Origin: Methylovulum sp.
GTDB taxonomy: Bacteria > Pseudomonadota > Gammaproteobacteria > Methylococcales > Methylomonadaceae
Direction: 5' to 3'
Assembly (NCBI GenBank): GCA_028713595.1
Contig: JAQTNZ010000003.1
Location: forward strand, 1 to 20,827
Length of the DNA stretch: 20,827 nucleotides
The notes under the pieces are model-generated. The model had not been told where the DNA came from, ran no database searches, and was given only the letters and a program-made list of their open reading frames with translations. A program made the position numbers and the translations under genes. Of this stretch, positions 15,779 to 20,827 are shown piece after piece (position 1 is the first letter of the stretch; each line of letters begins with the position of its first letter).

Positions 15779-16663
15779 ATGAACGCTGATGACTTGATCG
15801 ACCAGTTCCTCGATGCCGCTTGGGCGGAACAAGGCTTAAGCGAAAACACCCTGTCCGCTTACCGTAGCGATTTGCGCATTTTTGCCAAATGGTTGGCAGG
15901 TAAGCCGCTGTTGACGGTCGATAATGGGCAGCTTCGGGAGTTTCTTAGCAGCCGTTATGATGAAGGCATAGGCAGCCGCTCTTCGGCGCGGATTTTGTCC
16001 AGCTTGCGGCGTTTTTATGGCTATTACATCCGCGAAAACCGTATCAGCATCGACCCGACCGCACTGATAGCATCGCCGCACCTAGGCCGGCCCTTACCCA
16101 TATCCTTATCGGAAACGGACGTGGACTTGTTGCTGTCCGCCCCCGAAGTCAGCAATCCGCTAGGTTATCGGGATAAGACCATGCTGGAAATGCTCTATGC
16201 CACAGGGCTGCGGGTCACTGAGCTGGTTGACCTGAAATTTGCCCACGTCAGCTTCCGGCAGGGCGTGGTGCGCGTCACCGGCAAAGGCGACAAGCAGCGG
16301 CTGATTCCGGTGGGCGAAGAAGCGATGTCATGGCTGGAAGGCTATATGGGGCAGGCCAGAAAAGCCATTCTGGGCGAGCGGCAATCCGATTATTTGTTTG
16401 TCACCAACCGCGCCAGCAATATGACGCGGCAAGCCTTCTGGTACATCATCAAACGCCACGCGCTGACGGCGGGTATCAATAAAGAATTGTCGCCGCACAC
16501 CTTACGCCATGCTTTTGCCACCCATTTGCTCAACCACGGTGCCGACTTGCGCGTGGTGCAACTGTTGCTGGGGCATTCGGATTTGTCCACCACGCAAATC
16601 TACACCCACATTGCCAACCAACGTTTAAAAGAATTGCACGCCAAGTATCATCCACGCGGCTGA
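15779..16663 (+). CDS. xerD: XerD tyrosine recombinase (chromosome dimer resolution)
   Basis: The 294 residues resemble E. coli XerD (298 aa) throughout, from the N-terminal SAM-like domain (IDQFLDAAWAEQGLSENTL) to the catalytic domain. The catalytic residues are all present: Arg145 (ATGLRVTEL), Lys169 (GKGDKQR), His240 and Arg243 (SPHTLRHAFATHLLNHGAD), His266 (GHSDLSTTQIYTH) and nucleophile Tyr275. XerD acts with XerC at dif, activated by FtsK. The high similarity to XerD and the absence of attachment sites or phage genes argue that it is the housekeeping enzyme, not the integrase of the downstream island. It may be transcribed with ugd. Confidence 0.93.
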   Translation: MNADDLIDQFLDAAWAEQGLSENTLSAYRSDLRIFAKWLAGKPLLTVDNGQLREFLSSRYDEGIGSRSSARILSSLRRFYGYYIRENRISIDPTALIASPHLGRPLPISLSETDVDLLLSAPEVSNPLGYRDKTMLEMLYATGLRVTELVDLKFAHVSFRQGVVRVTGKGDKQRLIPVGEEAMSWLEGYMGQARKAILGERQSDYLFVTNRASNMTRQAFWYIIKRHALTAGINKELSPHTLRHAFATHLLNHGADLRVVQLLLGHSDLSTTQIYTHIANQRLKELHAKYHPRG

Positions 16664-16711
16664 CAGCCGTTTTTGCCACAGATCAAAAGTCCAGCCCCAG
16701 CCATTTTGTTT

Positions 16712-16717
16712 TATAAT
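16712..16717 (+). promoter_or_regulatory. -10 element (TATAAT) before the DUF815 ATPase
   Basis: A consensus TATAAT lies 15 nt before the ATG at 16733, without a recognisable -35 at the expected spacing. If used, transcription would begin near 16724, so the upstream TTG at 16673 could not be the start of the ATPase. Confidence 0.35.
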
Positions 16718-16732
16718 GCCGGATCAGTTTTT

Positions 16733-17521
16733 ATGGTCAATAGGTATAAAGCAATGCTTGATTGGAATGTGACTTACGCCGCCATTTGGCGGCAACGCAA
16801 AGAATACCTGCGCCCCGTGCGCCACATTGACCCTATCCAATTGGATGATTTGTTGGGCATTGACGGCAAAAAACAGTTGCTGGTGGACAATACCGAACGC
16901 TTTCTGGCGGGCAAGCCCGCCAACAACGCTTTGCTGTGGGGGTCGCGGGGTACGGGCAAATCATCATTAATCAAAGCCTTACTGAATGCCTATAAAGCGG
17001 TGGGCTTACGGCTGATTGAAGTGGATAAGCAAGATTTGGTGTATTTGCCGGAAATTGTCGATGACATCCGCGAACTCCCTCAACGTTTCATCATTTATTG
17101 TGATGACCTGTCTTTTGAGTCCGGCGACAGCCATTACAAATCCTTAAAAAGCGTGTTGGAAGGCTCAATTGAGCTGCCGCCGGACAATGTCCTGGTCTAT
17201 GCCACTTCTAACCGCCGGCATTTGCTGCCGGAGCTGATGAAAGACAACCTCGACTCCCACTTAGTTGATAGGGAAGTGCATTATTCGGACACCGTGGAAG
17301 AAAAAACCTCGCTGTCCGACCGTTTCGGCTTGTCGTTAGGTTTTTATCCGCAAACCACCCAAACCTATCTGGAGATTATTGACGGCTTTTTCCCTGAGGT
17401 GACGGGCGACCGTACCGGCCTACACAAAGCCGCCCTGGATTTTGCCCATCAACGCGCCTCAAAAAGCGGCCGCACCGCCAAGCAGTTTTATAACGCGTTT
17501 GTCGGTGCGGCATTTGCCTAA
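16733..17521 (+). CDS. DUF815-family AAA+ type P-loop ATPase
   Basis: In this 262-residue protein, the Walker A motif GSRGTGKS is at about 70-77 and Walker B is IIYCDDLSFE (Asp124, Asp125). VLVYATSNRRHLLPE is a sensor-1-like strand, and SDRFGLSL holds a probable arginine finger. This is the DUF815 arrangement, whose cellular role is not established. The frame runs back to a TTG at 16673; I chose the ATG at 16733 because a TATAAT lies between them. An ATG at 16754 (MLDWNV) is also possible. It is the last gene with the GC-rich composition of the host; the AT-rich operon begins 154 bp later. Confidence 0.88.
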   Translation: MVNRYKAMLDWNVTYAAIWRQRKEYLRPVRHIDPIQLDDLLGIDGKKQLLVDNTERFLAGKPANNALLWGSRGTGKSSLIKALLNAYKAVGLRLIEVDKQDLVYLPEIVDDIRELPQRFIIYCDDLSFESGDSHYKSLKSVLEGSIELPPDNVLVYATSNRRHLLPELMKDNLDSHLVDREVHYSDTVEEKTSLSDRFGLSLGFYPQTTQTYLEIIDGFFPEVTGDRTGLHKAALDFAHQRASKSGRTAKQFYNAFVGAAFA

Positions 17522-17549
17522 AAGCCCGGCCAAGCGGGTAGGGGTTTTT
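17520..17549 (+). terminator. Possible terminator after the DUF815 ATPase
   Basis: AAAAGCCC at the stop codon can pair with GGGGTTTT (17541-17548), with one G-G mismatch, and is followed by one further T; a smaller CCCG/CGGG stem is an alternative. It is imperfect, but it is placed exactly where the host-like sequence ends. Confidence 0.35.
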
Positions 17550-17675
17550 AGTCCGATAAGGGCAAGAAAGTATTTGTGCATTCATTGGGAATTACTCTAT
17601 GTTACAGTTGCGATGCAATTCAAGTAGGATGAACAGAATTATCTATTTTCACAAAAACAATGGGGTGATAATTAA

Positions 17676-18353
17676 ATGTTACTAAAAGCAGAGTTTCCAA
17701 GAAATTATGAAGCTAAAACGATTTGTTGCTTTGTTTTAGATACCTCAGGCTCAATGGGAGGCGAGCCAATTGCAGAGCTTAATAATGGTTTAAAAGAGTT
17801 TCATGAAGAAATCCATAACGATGAAACAACAGCTCAACGTTTGGAAATTGCTATTGTTACTTTTGACAATAATATTAAGATCGTACAAGAACCCGCTCTA
17901 GTAGAAGATTTTGCCGCGCCTACTTTAACGGTTACTGGCACAACAAGAATGGTCGATGGTGTGCGTGAAGCTATTACTTTGGTCGAAACACGCAAGCAAT
18001 GGTATAAACAAACTGGGCAGCAATATTTACGTCCTTGGATTATTCTGATTACTGATGGCGCACCCGATGGCGGTCAAAATATACATGGATTGGCGCAAGA
18101 AATTCGAGATGGCATGAATAATAAAGCCTTTGTTTTTTTAGCCGTAGGTGTAAAAGGTGCAGATATGAAAATTTTGCAAACCATATCGGGTTCCCTTAAA
18201 GAAAAATCCGTAGGCCCTTATATGTTGCAAGGCCTCAAATTTTCTGAGTTCTTTGAATGGATGAGCGCAAGTATGGCGATTGCATCAAGTTCAGCTGAAG
18301 GCGACAAAGTGAGCTTGCCTAAACCTACATGGACAGATGGTTTTGAAATATGA
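17676..18353 (+). CDS. TerY/YegL-like von Willebrand factor A domain protein
   Basis: The protein is essentially a single vWA domain of 225 residues with an intact metal-ion-dependent adhesion site: DTSGSM at 22-27, Thr89/Thr90 in TGTTRMVDG, and Asp127 in LITDGAPDGG. There is no signal peptide or membrane segment, so it is cytoplasmic. The C-terminal LPKPTW tail is typical of TerY-type proteins. It is the first gene of an operon with a PP2C phosphatase and a kinase, the set known as the TerY-P triad and matching E. coli yegL-yegK(pphC)-yegI. Its likely job is to scaffold or present a kinase or phosphatase substrate. GGGGTGAT precedes the ATG at normal distance. Composition is much AT-richer than the genes to its left. 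Confidence 0.92.
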   Translation: MLLKAEFPRNYEAKTICCFVLDTSGSMGGEPIAELNNGLKEFHEEIHNDETTAQRLEIAIVTFDNNIKIVQEPALVEDFAAPTLTVTGTTRMVDGVREAITLVETRKQWYKQTGQQYLRPWIILITDGAPDGGQNIHGLAQEIRDGMNNKAFVFLAVGVKGADMKILQTISGSLKEKSVGPYMLQGLKFSEFFEWMSASMAIASSSAEGDKVSLPKPTWTDGFEI

Positions 18354-19198
18354 ATAACAAGACCAGCACCCACTCATGGTTGATAGTATCTCATTCAGCA
18401 ATAGGTAGGCAACATGTTAAGAAGAATATCCCTTGCCAAGATGCCCATTATCTTATTGAAGTGAATGCTGAAACAGGTATTGCCGTTGTTTGTGATGGTG
18501 CTGGTTCAGCTATAGAATCCCATATGGGTGCAAAAATTGTTGCTAAACAAACGAGTGTTTTATTAAAGCGTGAAATTGAAACAGTCGCTTGGCAGTTTCC
18601 TTCCAATACTGATGCTAATATATGGCAAAACATCAGCTATGAAGTTTTGTTAAAGGTACGGGATTTTCTCAATAGATTTGCTAAAAAAACCAACAGGGAT
18701 GTTAAATTACTAGCGTGTACTGTTATTGTGGTTGTTTACAGTCCACACACCATCCTTATTAGCCATATTGGTGATGGTAGGGCGGCATATTGTAATAATC
18801 GTGGTGATTGGCAAGCAATAATGACTCCTTTTAAAGGAGAAGAGGCTAATCAGACCATGTTTATTACTTGTGATTTATGGTGTAGCCATGCCGAATACTT
18901 GGAATGCAACATTATCAATGACGATATTGCCGCATTCACGCTTATGTCAGATGGCTGTGAAAATTATGCTTTTCAAACAAATAGCTATGATGAAGAAAAA
19001 GGTATTTTTTTTTCACTTAATGAACCCTATAGCAAATTTTTTCAGCCATTAACAGGGCAGTTATTATCTTTATACAAGCAAGGCTATTCAGATCAAGAGC
19101 TTAATAAAGAGTGGCAAAATTTTATAGAATCTGGAAATGAAAGTTTAGCGAAAGAAAGTGATGATAAGACCCTAATTTTAGGCATATTGAAGGCATGA
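18350..19198 (+). CDS. PP2C-family serine/threonine phosphatase
   Basis: The 282-residue cytoplasmic PP2C protein shows metal-binding motifs in order: IPCQDAH (Asp31), VVCDGAGSA (Asp49, Gly50), LLACTVIVVV, SHIGDGRAAY, a TLMSDGCEN motif and the C-terminal ESDDKTLILGIL. The short form and the PCQD start match the PphC/YegK type that accompanies TerY/YegL proteins. It would reverse phosphorylation by the kinase encoded next. The ATG overlaps the vWA stop as ATGA, and the kinase begins 4 nt after its own stop, so all three should be made in fixed proportions. Confidence 0.92.
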   Translation: MNNKTSTHSWLIVSHSAIGRQHVKKNIPCQDAHYLIEVNAETGIAVVCDGAGSAIESHMGAKIVAKQTSVLLKREIETVAWQFPSNTDANIWQNISYEVLLKVRDFLNRFAKKTNRDVKLLACTVIVVVYSPHTILISHIGDGRAAYCNNRGDWQAIMTPFKGEEANQTMFITCDLWCSHAEYLECNIINDDIAAFTLMSDGCENYAFQTNSYDEEKGIFFSLNEPYSKFFQPLTGQLLSLYKQGYSDQELNKEWQNFIESGNESLAKESDDKTLILGILKA

Positions 19199-19202
19199 AA
19201 TT

Positions 19203-20240
19203 ATGGCTATTTTCTTCACATCAGCTCATCAAAAAATAGAAGTTGAGGATAAGCCCTTCGGAAAAGGTGGCGAAGGATCTGTACACAAAATAATATCCCC
19301 CGCTTTTTTAAAAGATTGCTGTCTAAAACTTTATGCAGATAAGTATAAAACTTCTGAACGACAAAGCAAAATAGAGTTTATGGTTAAGAATAAACCCAGC
19401 AAGTTAAGCAGTACCGTTTATATGCTATGCTGGCCTAACGAAATTGTCTTTGATAACATAGGACAATTTGTTGGTTTCTTATTGCCATTAGCTTGGCCTA
19501 ATAGCGTTAAACTATATAGTTTGTGCTTGCCTGATAAAGATACCCCAAACCCTGCGTGGCTTAGCAGATTTACTAGACAAACATCTCAGGGGAAAGCATC
19601 ACGCTTAAAACTGATTGTTAATATAGCGAGTGCTATACATAGCGTTCATAGCTTCAATAAATATGTATTCGTTGATATGAAGCCCGAAAATATATTGGTC
19701 ACGGAAGAGGCTAAAATAGCCATTATTGATCTTGATTCAATTCAAATAGCAGAAAATAAACAAGTTCAGTTCAACGCACAAGTCGCTACCCCTGAATACA
19801 GCCCACCCGAAGCAATCAATCCAAAAGAAAATTATATTCCGGTGAATTGGGATAGGTTTTCGATGGCGATTATTTTTTATAAGCTACTGTTTGGTATTCA
19901 TCCTTTCACCGCATCATTTAAAGGCAGTTATGAACAAATTACTACACCTCAAGAAGCTATAAAGAATGGGTTATTTGTCAATGGTTATAAATGGAGTTAT
20001 GTGGCGATATTACCACCGCCACATGGGAATTTTAAAAATATAGACATGAAGTTACAAGACTTATTTAAGTTAGCTTTTGATAACGGATTGATTCGCGCAG
20101 ATTTACGTCCAGCCGCAGAAAATTGGGGAAAGATAGTTTATGACATGGTTAATACCAAAATAACAAGCACAGTTTTTTTGAGCAGTGAAATCGAAAATGT
20201 CCTAAAAAACAGAATACGCCAAATTAAAGGCTTATTATGA
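19203..20240 (+). CDS. Eukaryotic-like Ser/Thr protein kinase, YegI/TerY-P type, short form
   Basis: The 345 residues form a kinase domain with a short tail. The glycine loop is GKGGEGSV (21-28) and the probable ATP lysine is Lys42 (LKLY). The catalytic loop reads FVDMKPEN, with Asp158 and Asn163, so the usual HRD is replaced by VFVD; the metal-binding DFG is DLD (Asp176), and SPPE stands for APE. These replacements are usual in the TerY-P/YegI group, and the residues needed for catalysis are kept. E. coli YegI is much longer, with a C-terminal extension that is absent here. There is no membrane segment. The stop overlaps the next gene as ATGA, tying kinase output to the MotA/ZorA-like protein, a plausible substrate. 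Confidence 0.9.
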   Translation: MAIFFTSAHQKIEVEDKPFGKGGEGSVHKIISPAFLKDCCLKLYADKYKTSERQSKIEFMVKNKPSKLSSTVYMLCWPNEIVFDNIGQFVGFLLPLAWPNSVKLYSLCLPDKDTPNPAWLSRFTRQTSQGKASRLKLIVNIASAIHSVHSFNKYVFVDMKPENILVTEEAKIAIIDLDSIQIAENKQVQFNAQVATPEYSPPEAINPKENYIPVNWDRFSMAIIFYKLLFGIHPFTASFKGSYEQITTPQEAIKNGLFVNGYKWSYVAILPPPHGNFKNIDMKLQDLFKLAFDNGLIRADLRPAAENWGKIVYDMVNTKITSTVFLSSEIENVLKNRIRQIKGLL

Positions 20241-20827
20241 AAACAGAAGAAGTGGTTATTGTTTTATTCTTTTTAGGAATATCAGGTTATGCTATTTATT
20301 ATCTATACAATTTGTGGAAAATTAAAAATCAGATACTGAATCAACTTGATAGTAAAGATATTCATGCTTATAAGTGCTATGTTAAAACGATAAAAACGCT
20401 CACTAACAGCAAAAAGACTTTTACACCCGCCAAACAGTTTTTTACGCTTGAAAAATTACTTAAAGATAATAATATCAATTTGCGTTTGTATCTTGCTATA
20501 CCCAGTTTATTAGTAGGCCTTGGCGTATTGGGAACATTTATTGGTTTTTCGATGACAGTTTGGTCGGTTGGCGACCTACTCGATGCCAGCAATCAACTGG
20601 AAAGCATGAAAAAACTATTTGCATCGGTAAAAATAGCTTTCGTGTCTTCTGTAGCCGGAATGTTTTGGTCATTTATCTTTTCAAAATTTGAAAAAATCCA
20701 ATTTTACAAATTAGAAGAAAAAATAAATATACAATGCGATCGGCTTGATGAAATTTATTATCAAGCGCATGAGGAATATATCAGGGAGTTTATTGGCAAT
20801 ATTGAAAATACGTTAACAGCCAATATA
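20237..20827 (+). CDS. MotA/TolQ/ExbB-superfamily channel protein, ZorA-like (partial, open at right edge)
   Basis: The frame starts at an ATG overlapping the kinase stop and stays open for 197 codons to the end of the window. One helix is at about 5-27, then a basic cytoplasmic stretch, then IPSLLVGLGVLGTFIGFSMT (about 88-107) and a third helix within VKIAFVSSVAGMFWSFIFSK (about 131-150). After that a charged, helix-prone tail begins. The P-x-LL-x-GLG-x-LGTF-x-G helix and the AF-x-SS-x-AGM-x-x-S helix resemble ZorA of Zorya defence systems more than the ExbB at the start of this window. ZorA pairs with the MotB/OmpA-like ZorB in a proton-driven motor with a long intracellular tail. That a ZorB-like gene follows is prediction. 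Composition matches the three genes before it. Confidence 0.82.
   Translation, partial: MKTEEVVIVLFFLGISGYAIYYLYNLWKIKNQILNQLDSKDIHAYKCYVKTIKTLTNSKKTFTPAKQFFTLEKLLKDNNINLRLYLAIPSLLVGLGVLGTFIGFSMTVWSVGDLLDASNQLESMKKLFASVKIAFVSSVAGMFWSFIFSKFEKIQFYKLEEKINIQCDRLDEIYYQAHEEYIREFIGNIENTLTANI

Follow-up and report, generated by a model that had tools for sequence, protein, structure and literature searches.

A vWA-PP2C-kinase triad joined to ZorA- and ZorB-like genes in Methylovulum: a candidate nuclease-free relative of the Zorya systems

Two kinds of described antiphage system come closest to the locus reported here: the Zorya systems, built around the membrane proteins ZorA and ZorB, and the TerY-P triad of a vWA protein, a PP2C-family phosphatase and a Ser/Thr kinase, reportedly treated by Gao et al. 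in 2020. The locus is a gene cassette at the end of a contig of Methylovulum sp. (NCBI GenBank assembly GCA_028713595.1, contig JAQTNZ010000003.1, here C3), and the window analysed is the whole of that contig (20,827 bases). The unit is almost certainly a five-gene cassette of vWA, PP2C, kinase, ZorA and ZorB. We give an even chance to the reading that it is a Zorya ZorAB motor joined to a TerY-P/YegLKI-type triad, which would replace the usual cytosolic nuclease.

The passages of PMC11890865 on ZorAB describe an ion motor that reads peptidoglycan and recruits a nuclease through its tail, and structural work there places ZorAB upstream, as sensor and recruiter. The words kinase and phosphatase do not occur in the main text of that paper. 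The relevant section of PMC8565338 gives ZorA, ZorB, ZorF and ZorG as type III and carries the earlier proposal of ZorAB as a channel aiding abortive infection, and an extract of PMC12505986 treats ZorAB as a remote stator homologue. As for the triad, it is described in a section of PMC7699616, and for P. aeruginosa part of PMC10889362 counts TerY-P as one antiphage system and Zorya I as another; the excerpts consulted from the literature on TerY-P name no trigger. The original prediction knew of no described system of exactly this make-up, and in the literature searched, which excludes subscription papers, we likewise found no description of a vWA-PP2C-kinase triad together with ZorAB.

Four open reading frames (ORFs) on the + strand form the part of the cassette that lies in the window; they overlap by ATGA at 18350 and at 20237 and leave a 4-nucleotide gap at 19199-19202, exactly the layout first predicted. 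The first ORF (17676..18353, +) encodes a vWA protein of 225 amino acids (aa; Pfam VWA, E 2.6e-10); its metal ion-dependent adhesion site (MIDAS) motif DxSxS, which reads DTSGS here, is kept in eight aligned relatives, as are the Thr and Asp further along. The second (18350..19198, +) encodes a PP2C-family phosphatase of 282 aa (Pfam PP2C_2, E 1.4e-35), with the segments PCQD, DGAGS, GDG, SDG and DD.T kept in eight aligned relatives. The third (19203..20240, +) is a Ser/Thr protein kinase of 345 aa (Pfam Pkinase, E 4e-19) that contains GKGGEG, KLY, DMKPEN and DLD and has no C-terminal membrane helix. These Pfam matches agree with the triad first proposed, whose three genes adjoin with active-site motifs that appear intact, as in TerY-P. 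PADLOC families gave no match for the three vWA proteins tried, and the sole match for phosphatases was the candidate family PDC-M21C, weak and in two of the three tried.

The fourth ORF (20237..20827, +) is cut by the contig end and gives the N-terminal 197 residues of a ZorA-like protein. Its original identification stands on matches to PADLOC ZorA1 (8e-15) and NCBIfam ZorA_2 (6.6e-16, under the NCBI curated score), and Pfam MotA_ExbB falls under its cut-off (E 0.027). The protein database lists a precomputed Pfam PF28082 for this fragment (P0001, 20237-20827), which was not reported by hmmscan.

The remainder of the cassette was recovered from the same assembly (G000; 3.26 Mb, 587 contigs, 76.6% complete) by a search with a relative's ZorB. 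The contig found, C301, overlaps the end of the window exactly over its first 23 bases and keeps the zorA frame, which continues at L045:3-827 and gives a joined protein of 464 aa. Eleven bases further, outside the window, zorB (L045:839-1636) encodes a 265-aa protein that scores 30.6 bits for an OmpA domain, above the cut-off of 27.2, and matches PADLOC ZorB2 at E 7.8e-60. The extension to the right thus yields the OmpA/MotB-type, ZorB-like partner that had been expected, and not an ExbD/TonB or flagellar set.

The cassette is flanked by a DUF815 gene on the left (C3) and by the first part of an lpxA-type gene on the right (C301). G496, a relative in which neither PP2C nor ZorB has a match, carries an lpxA-type gene with hexapeptide repeats and UDP-GlcNAc O-acyltransferase domain 2 just 62 bases after DUF815; this adjacency gives independent support to the join of C3 and C301 and indicates an insertion. 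The left junction (17522..17675) consists of the DUF815 stop, a terminator-like hairpin at 17524-17549 (one such site, against a shuffle mean of 0.5) and then sequence with no clear counterpart in G496. The AT-rich block noticed at the outset is real, with a GC content of 0.315-0.397 in the cassette genes against 0.51 upstream and 0.50-0.55 to the right. The lpxA-type gene on C301 (L045:1814-2092) is a 5' fragment of about 36 codons that runs into unrelated sequence, through a deletion or an assembly error; that of G496 has an open frame of 256 aa.

The same gene order recurs elsewhere. PP2C relatives (E <= 1e-12) were found in 13 of 311 genomes of the order, and vWA, PP2C and kinase matches occur together in all 13, with two exceptions to the regular triad: the gene order differs in G490, and G511 has a more distant triad (L040:1482-5079) whose PP2C gene is split by a TAG stop. 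A ZorA-like gene directly follows the triad in four of the 13, namely our own genome, G317, G323 and G310. ZorB comes directly after ZorA in G317 and in G310, whose cassette spans L034:8375-13325; it lies on C301 in our genome and sits on a separate contig in G323. Besides our own genome, two therefore have all five genes in the same order, and G323 has the first four. The cassette is found, beyond our own genome, in three further genomes of two genera with tight spacing, and the ATGA junction between kinase and zorA is present in all four (the G310 kinase motifs were read from its DNA). A chance neighbourhood of four genes, unique to this genome, is ruled out by this recurrence. In G323 the contig ends about 420 bases after zorA in an inverted repeat of at least 40 bases (L033:12094-12513), and zorB lies on a contig that does not overlap it (L078:10372-10710); the cassette of this genome may have been broken up by a repeat element.

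In the protein database, the nearest kinase relative is P0002 from Methylovulum psychrotolerans (94% identical), whose genome also holds ZorB P0127 (96% identical); the longest contig listed for each is 3,779,276 bases. From names such as these, the host is a putative relative of methanotrophs. The G310 kinase is identical to P0011 (Methylomagnum ishizawai), and P0007 and P0128, each with a longest contig of 67,907 bases, are identical to the kinase and the ZorB of G323. When the top 11 kinase clusters (P0002-P0012) were compared with the top 15 of ZorB, four kinase/ZorB pairs had longest contigs of equal size and were taken to share a contig. A protein search with the cut ZorA matched only itself, probably owing to the length limits of the search; in the class, the cut ZorA matched 7 of 274 genomes at E <= 1e-5, our own included. 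A scan of genome contigs with PP2C gave six distant loci without ZorA or ZorB matches. Scans of viral contigs, one with PP2C and one with the ZorB alignment, found no relatives. A phage module was rejected (no PP2C match in phage records, and one unannotated 6.5-kb record for ZorB), as was, judged on the ZorB matches and not on their neighbourhoods, a plasmid module (16 plasmid records match ZorB, all below 60% identity, four of them annotated zorB2).

In terms of homology, the ZorA1 match ranges from 8e-15 for the window part to 3e-26 for G310. The AlphaFold model of the G317 ZorA has a mean predicted local distance difference test (pLDDT) score of 66, with residues 1-200 mostly confident and long helices at 223-454 of low confidence. 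Its best matches among the solved structures compared are ZorA, and the model points to a MotA/ExbB-type membrane core with a long cytoplasmic helical tail. The cassette ZorBs (256-268 aa) have ZorB2 as best family, and the OmpA domain is above the Pfam cut-off in our own, G317, G310 and G323 copies. From their sequence, these proteins would have one membrane helix with the critical Asp and an OmpA-type, putatively peptidoglycan-binding domain; D15 is invariant in the three aligned and pairs with D21 of 8vvi in a weak 4.6-bit aligned segment. A TolQR/ExbBD pair is ruled out by the partner, which has an OmpA domain and ZorB2 as best family and is not of ExbD/TolR type. A flagellar MotAB stator is also ruled out, since our ZorB matches flagellar MotB models at 2e-6 or weaker against 4e-41 for ZorB2, and no flagellar genes were present among the flanking genes scanned.

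In none of the four cassette genomes did a clear ZorE turn up. A three-row ZorB profile, A1, built from three of the four cassette ZorBs (which match by construction, leaving G323 alone as an independent match), found 16 of 311 genomes in the order, 14 of 369 in a class sample and 7 of 398 in a phylum sample, our own being counted each time and the samples possibly overlapping. The four cassette genomes match at E 3e-151 or better, and the next at 5e-48. In a large protein set (6,646 ZorB matches at E <= 1e-20 among 8,000 candidates scored), 15 clusters are at E <= 7e-78, one at 4e-64 and the others from 9e-52, among the best 120 listed. The one at 4e-64 is P0141, a ZorB-like protein of 351 aa with 36% identity on a 1.05-Mb contig, between the cassette group and other ZorBs.

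Outside the cassette, 28 ZorB loci were fetched, six new ones from the phylum sample being left aside; a ZorB frame is present in all 28 but L090, a broken remnant. None of the 28, several of which end at contig ends, has a vWA, PP2C or kinase match (E <= 1e-5). The gene after ZorB is ZorE in all ten loci tested (best E 3e-133 to 1.3e-5), which were picked because a same-strand gene directly follows ZorB. One genome, G276, carries two zorA-zorB-zorE units of identical gene sizes about 10.9 kb apart (L087:5140-8815 and 16067-19742). No ZorE lies beside ZorB in L045, L032 or L034. A hidden ZorE farther off was rejected, as the model PDLC00645 matched in none of the four cassette genomes, our own being 76.6% complete. 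Among the ten larger flanking proteins scanned with PADLOC, to which that search was confined, there is no ZorC, ZorD, ZorF or ZorG.

The kinases of the cassette are short. In a set of 131 kinases (120 listed of 138 database matches and 11 from the loci, triad membership of each being unchecked), a crude hydropathy scan finds a hydrophobic helix after residue 250 in 70 of the 101 longer than 376 residues, against 1 of the 30 shorter ones. Some long kinases have precomputed Pfam domains such as RDD, DUF805, SH3_3 and FGE-sulfatase. Nine kinase rows taken as ZorAB-linked all fall in one 14-row clade of short kinases with a Shimodaira-Hasegawa-like approximate likelihood ratio test (SH-aLRT) support of 97, in a tree made by a quick method; four of the nine form two identical pairs, and four of the labels rest on equal-sized contigs. 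The label needs five changes on this tree, as five clade members are unlabelled. The ZorAB motor would then stand in for the membrane and outer part that such kinases otherwise carry. In five triads of this order that lack ZorAB (L035-L039) the kinase measures 438-489 aa, and for three of them the scan shows a clear hydrophobic helix at the C-terminal end; these triads may be a sister system in which the kinase has its sensor built in.

An antiphage role in general is probable, in our judgement. As for how the cassette would work, ZorA5B2 would sit in the inner membrane with the OmpA domain of ZorB reading peptidoglycan, as published for Zorya I/II and expected here from the conserved sequence. 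By homology, wall damage or indentation, for instance by a phage, would open the ion path, and the long ZorA tail would carry the signal on into the cytoplasm. There the kinase, which itself lacks a membrane anchor and is encoded by a gene in translational coupling with zorA, may be recruited or activated and phosphorylate host or phage proteins, so that the infected cell is halted. The PP2C phosphatase would reset the switch, with the vWA protein as a putative scaffold. We tentatively favour a signal running from the motor as sensor to the kinase as output, at slightly under an even chance, and think it likelier than triad to motor, because ZorAB stands upstream in the structural work and longer related kinases mostly carry membrane parts. 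More specifically, and more doubtfully, the cassette could be a Zorya without a nuclease, whose rotary motor reads peptidoglycan and acts as the receptor of a eukaryotic-type kinase, in place of the kinase's own membrane sensor: a mechano-to-phosphorylation immune relay and a possible fourth Zorya type.

The original prediction had the kinase and phosphatase switching the motor. The evidence does not establish this direction; the Zorya papers and the build of related kinases favour a motor acting on the kinase. In its developed form the triad is the sensor or switch and ZorAB the effector, with the kinase phosphorylating the ZorA tail to open or close an ion leak, by which the cell would be depolarised or arrested. 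The switch genes do come first in the operon, there is an overlap between the kinase gene and zorA, a nuclease that could act as effector was not found, and an abortive-infection channel is the earlier proposal in the section of PMC8565338 cited above. Against this, the passages of PMC11890865 report later structural work with ZorAB upstream, and longer related kinases mostly have their own C-terminal membrane part, like a receptor kinase. We consider it unlikely.

A wall-anchored motor could also report wall tension to the kinase/phosphatase pair as an envelope-stress or cell-wall homeostasis device with no antiviral role, which we judge somewhat less probable still. The peptidoglycan-binding-like, OmpA-type domain of ZorB suits this idea, as do the housekeeping-type surroundings in the window and G310 and the position of yegL-pphC-yegI amid ordinary genes in an E. 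coli record. The sporadic distribution (4 of 311 in the order) and the AT-rich insertion between genes that adjoin in G496 argue against it. So do toxin-antitoxin-like genes directly upstream of the cassette in two of three relatives: BrnT-BrnA genes and a HicB-like antitoxin in G317 (L032:8177-9227), and in G323 (L033:6522-8038) genes for a small protein of the PF09000 (Cytotoxic) family, for one of 104 aa with no assigned family and for an ImmA/IrrE-type peptidase. In G310 and the window, no gene of this sort was seen immediately next to the cassette. The suggested placement in defence islands is borne out in part, by these genes and not by the ten larger neighbours in G310, G317 and G323, which include no clear defence gene. 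One of these neighbours is a ClpB-type ATPase, with matches to AAA models from several systems; another, an EAL/cNMP-binding protein, has weak matches to two cyclic-nucleotide models (1.6e-5 and 9e-5).

That co-transfer merely placed two independent systems next to each other, without their working together, is very improbable: both parts do occur separately, since triads lack ZorAB matches in the fetched stretch in 9 of the 13 triad genomes, and ZorB loci lack triad matches in 28 of 28, but the order and tight spacing recur in three further genomes of two genera, the ATGA coupling is kept in four of four, and ZorB and kinase each form their own group.

Several observations weigh against the reading of the cassette as a Zorya motor joined to a triad. 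The ZorA is 14-22% identical to solved ZorA chains, and its helical fold match is modestly above ExbB/TolQ. All ZorA and ZorB scores are under the NCBI curated cut-offs (ZorB2 139-143 bits against 400, ZorA_2 53-58 against 100, ZorA_1 34-62 against 190). The cassette is rare, and no cassette-group ZorB occurs elsewhere in the class or phylum samples. A single relative shows the site without the cassette; of the 20 genus members searched, five besides our own have a DUF815 match, and an lpxA-type match adjoins it in G496 and not in the other four. The larger neighbours are mostly housekeeping genes, and a second ZorE model, PDLC00642, has a weak 48-position match (E 4.5e-5) on an unconnected contig of our genome. 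Finally, no observation fixes the direction of signalling.

If this reading is true, ZorAB with only a kinase, a phosphatase and a vWA protein as cytosolic partners would depart from the usual partnership with a nuclease. The cassette would let the motor's own transmitted signal be probed, with a phosphorylation readout independent of DNA damage. Furthermore, a wall-anchored ion motor would be a concrete candidate sensor for TerY-P-type triads, and the cassette suggests a nuclease-free immune or envelope alarm.

When compared with known systems, the GAP1-N2 GTPase systems, as given in sections of PMC7159879, also join the triad to a further module, but they belong to actinobacteria and the module is a GTPase system; the main text of that paper mentions neither Zorya nor MotA nor ExbB. 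E. coli yegL-pphC-yegI has the same three protein types in the same order, with a kinase about 24% identical, no ZorAB in the stretch and an IS1 copy between pphC and yegI in the record examined. The TerY-P triad shares the side-by-side vWA, PP2C and Ser/Thr kinase genes with intact catalytic motifs, and differs in that the cassette kinase is short and followed by zorAB. Zorya types I (ZorABCD) and III (ZorAB-ZorF-ZorG) share the MotA/ExbB-type ZorA with a long helical tail, whereas the cassette has no ZorC, ZorD, ZorF or ZorG among the neighbours scanned and a ZorA of 455-514 aa, shorter than the 696-729 aa of the type I chains listed. Lastly, Zorya type II (ZorA-ZorB-ZorE) differs in that the cassette has no ZorE beside it, a phosphorylation triad in front and a ZorA membrane part closest to type I structures; like type II, it has ZorA before ZorB, a ZorB nearest to ZorB2 (PADLOC, PDB 8vvi) and peptidoglycan-binding segments that appear common to both.

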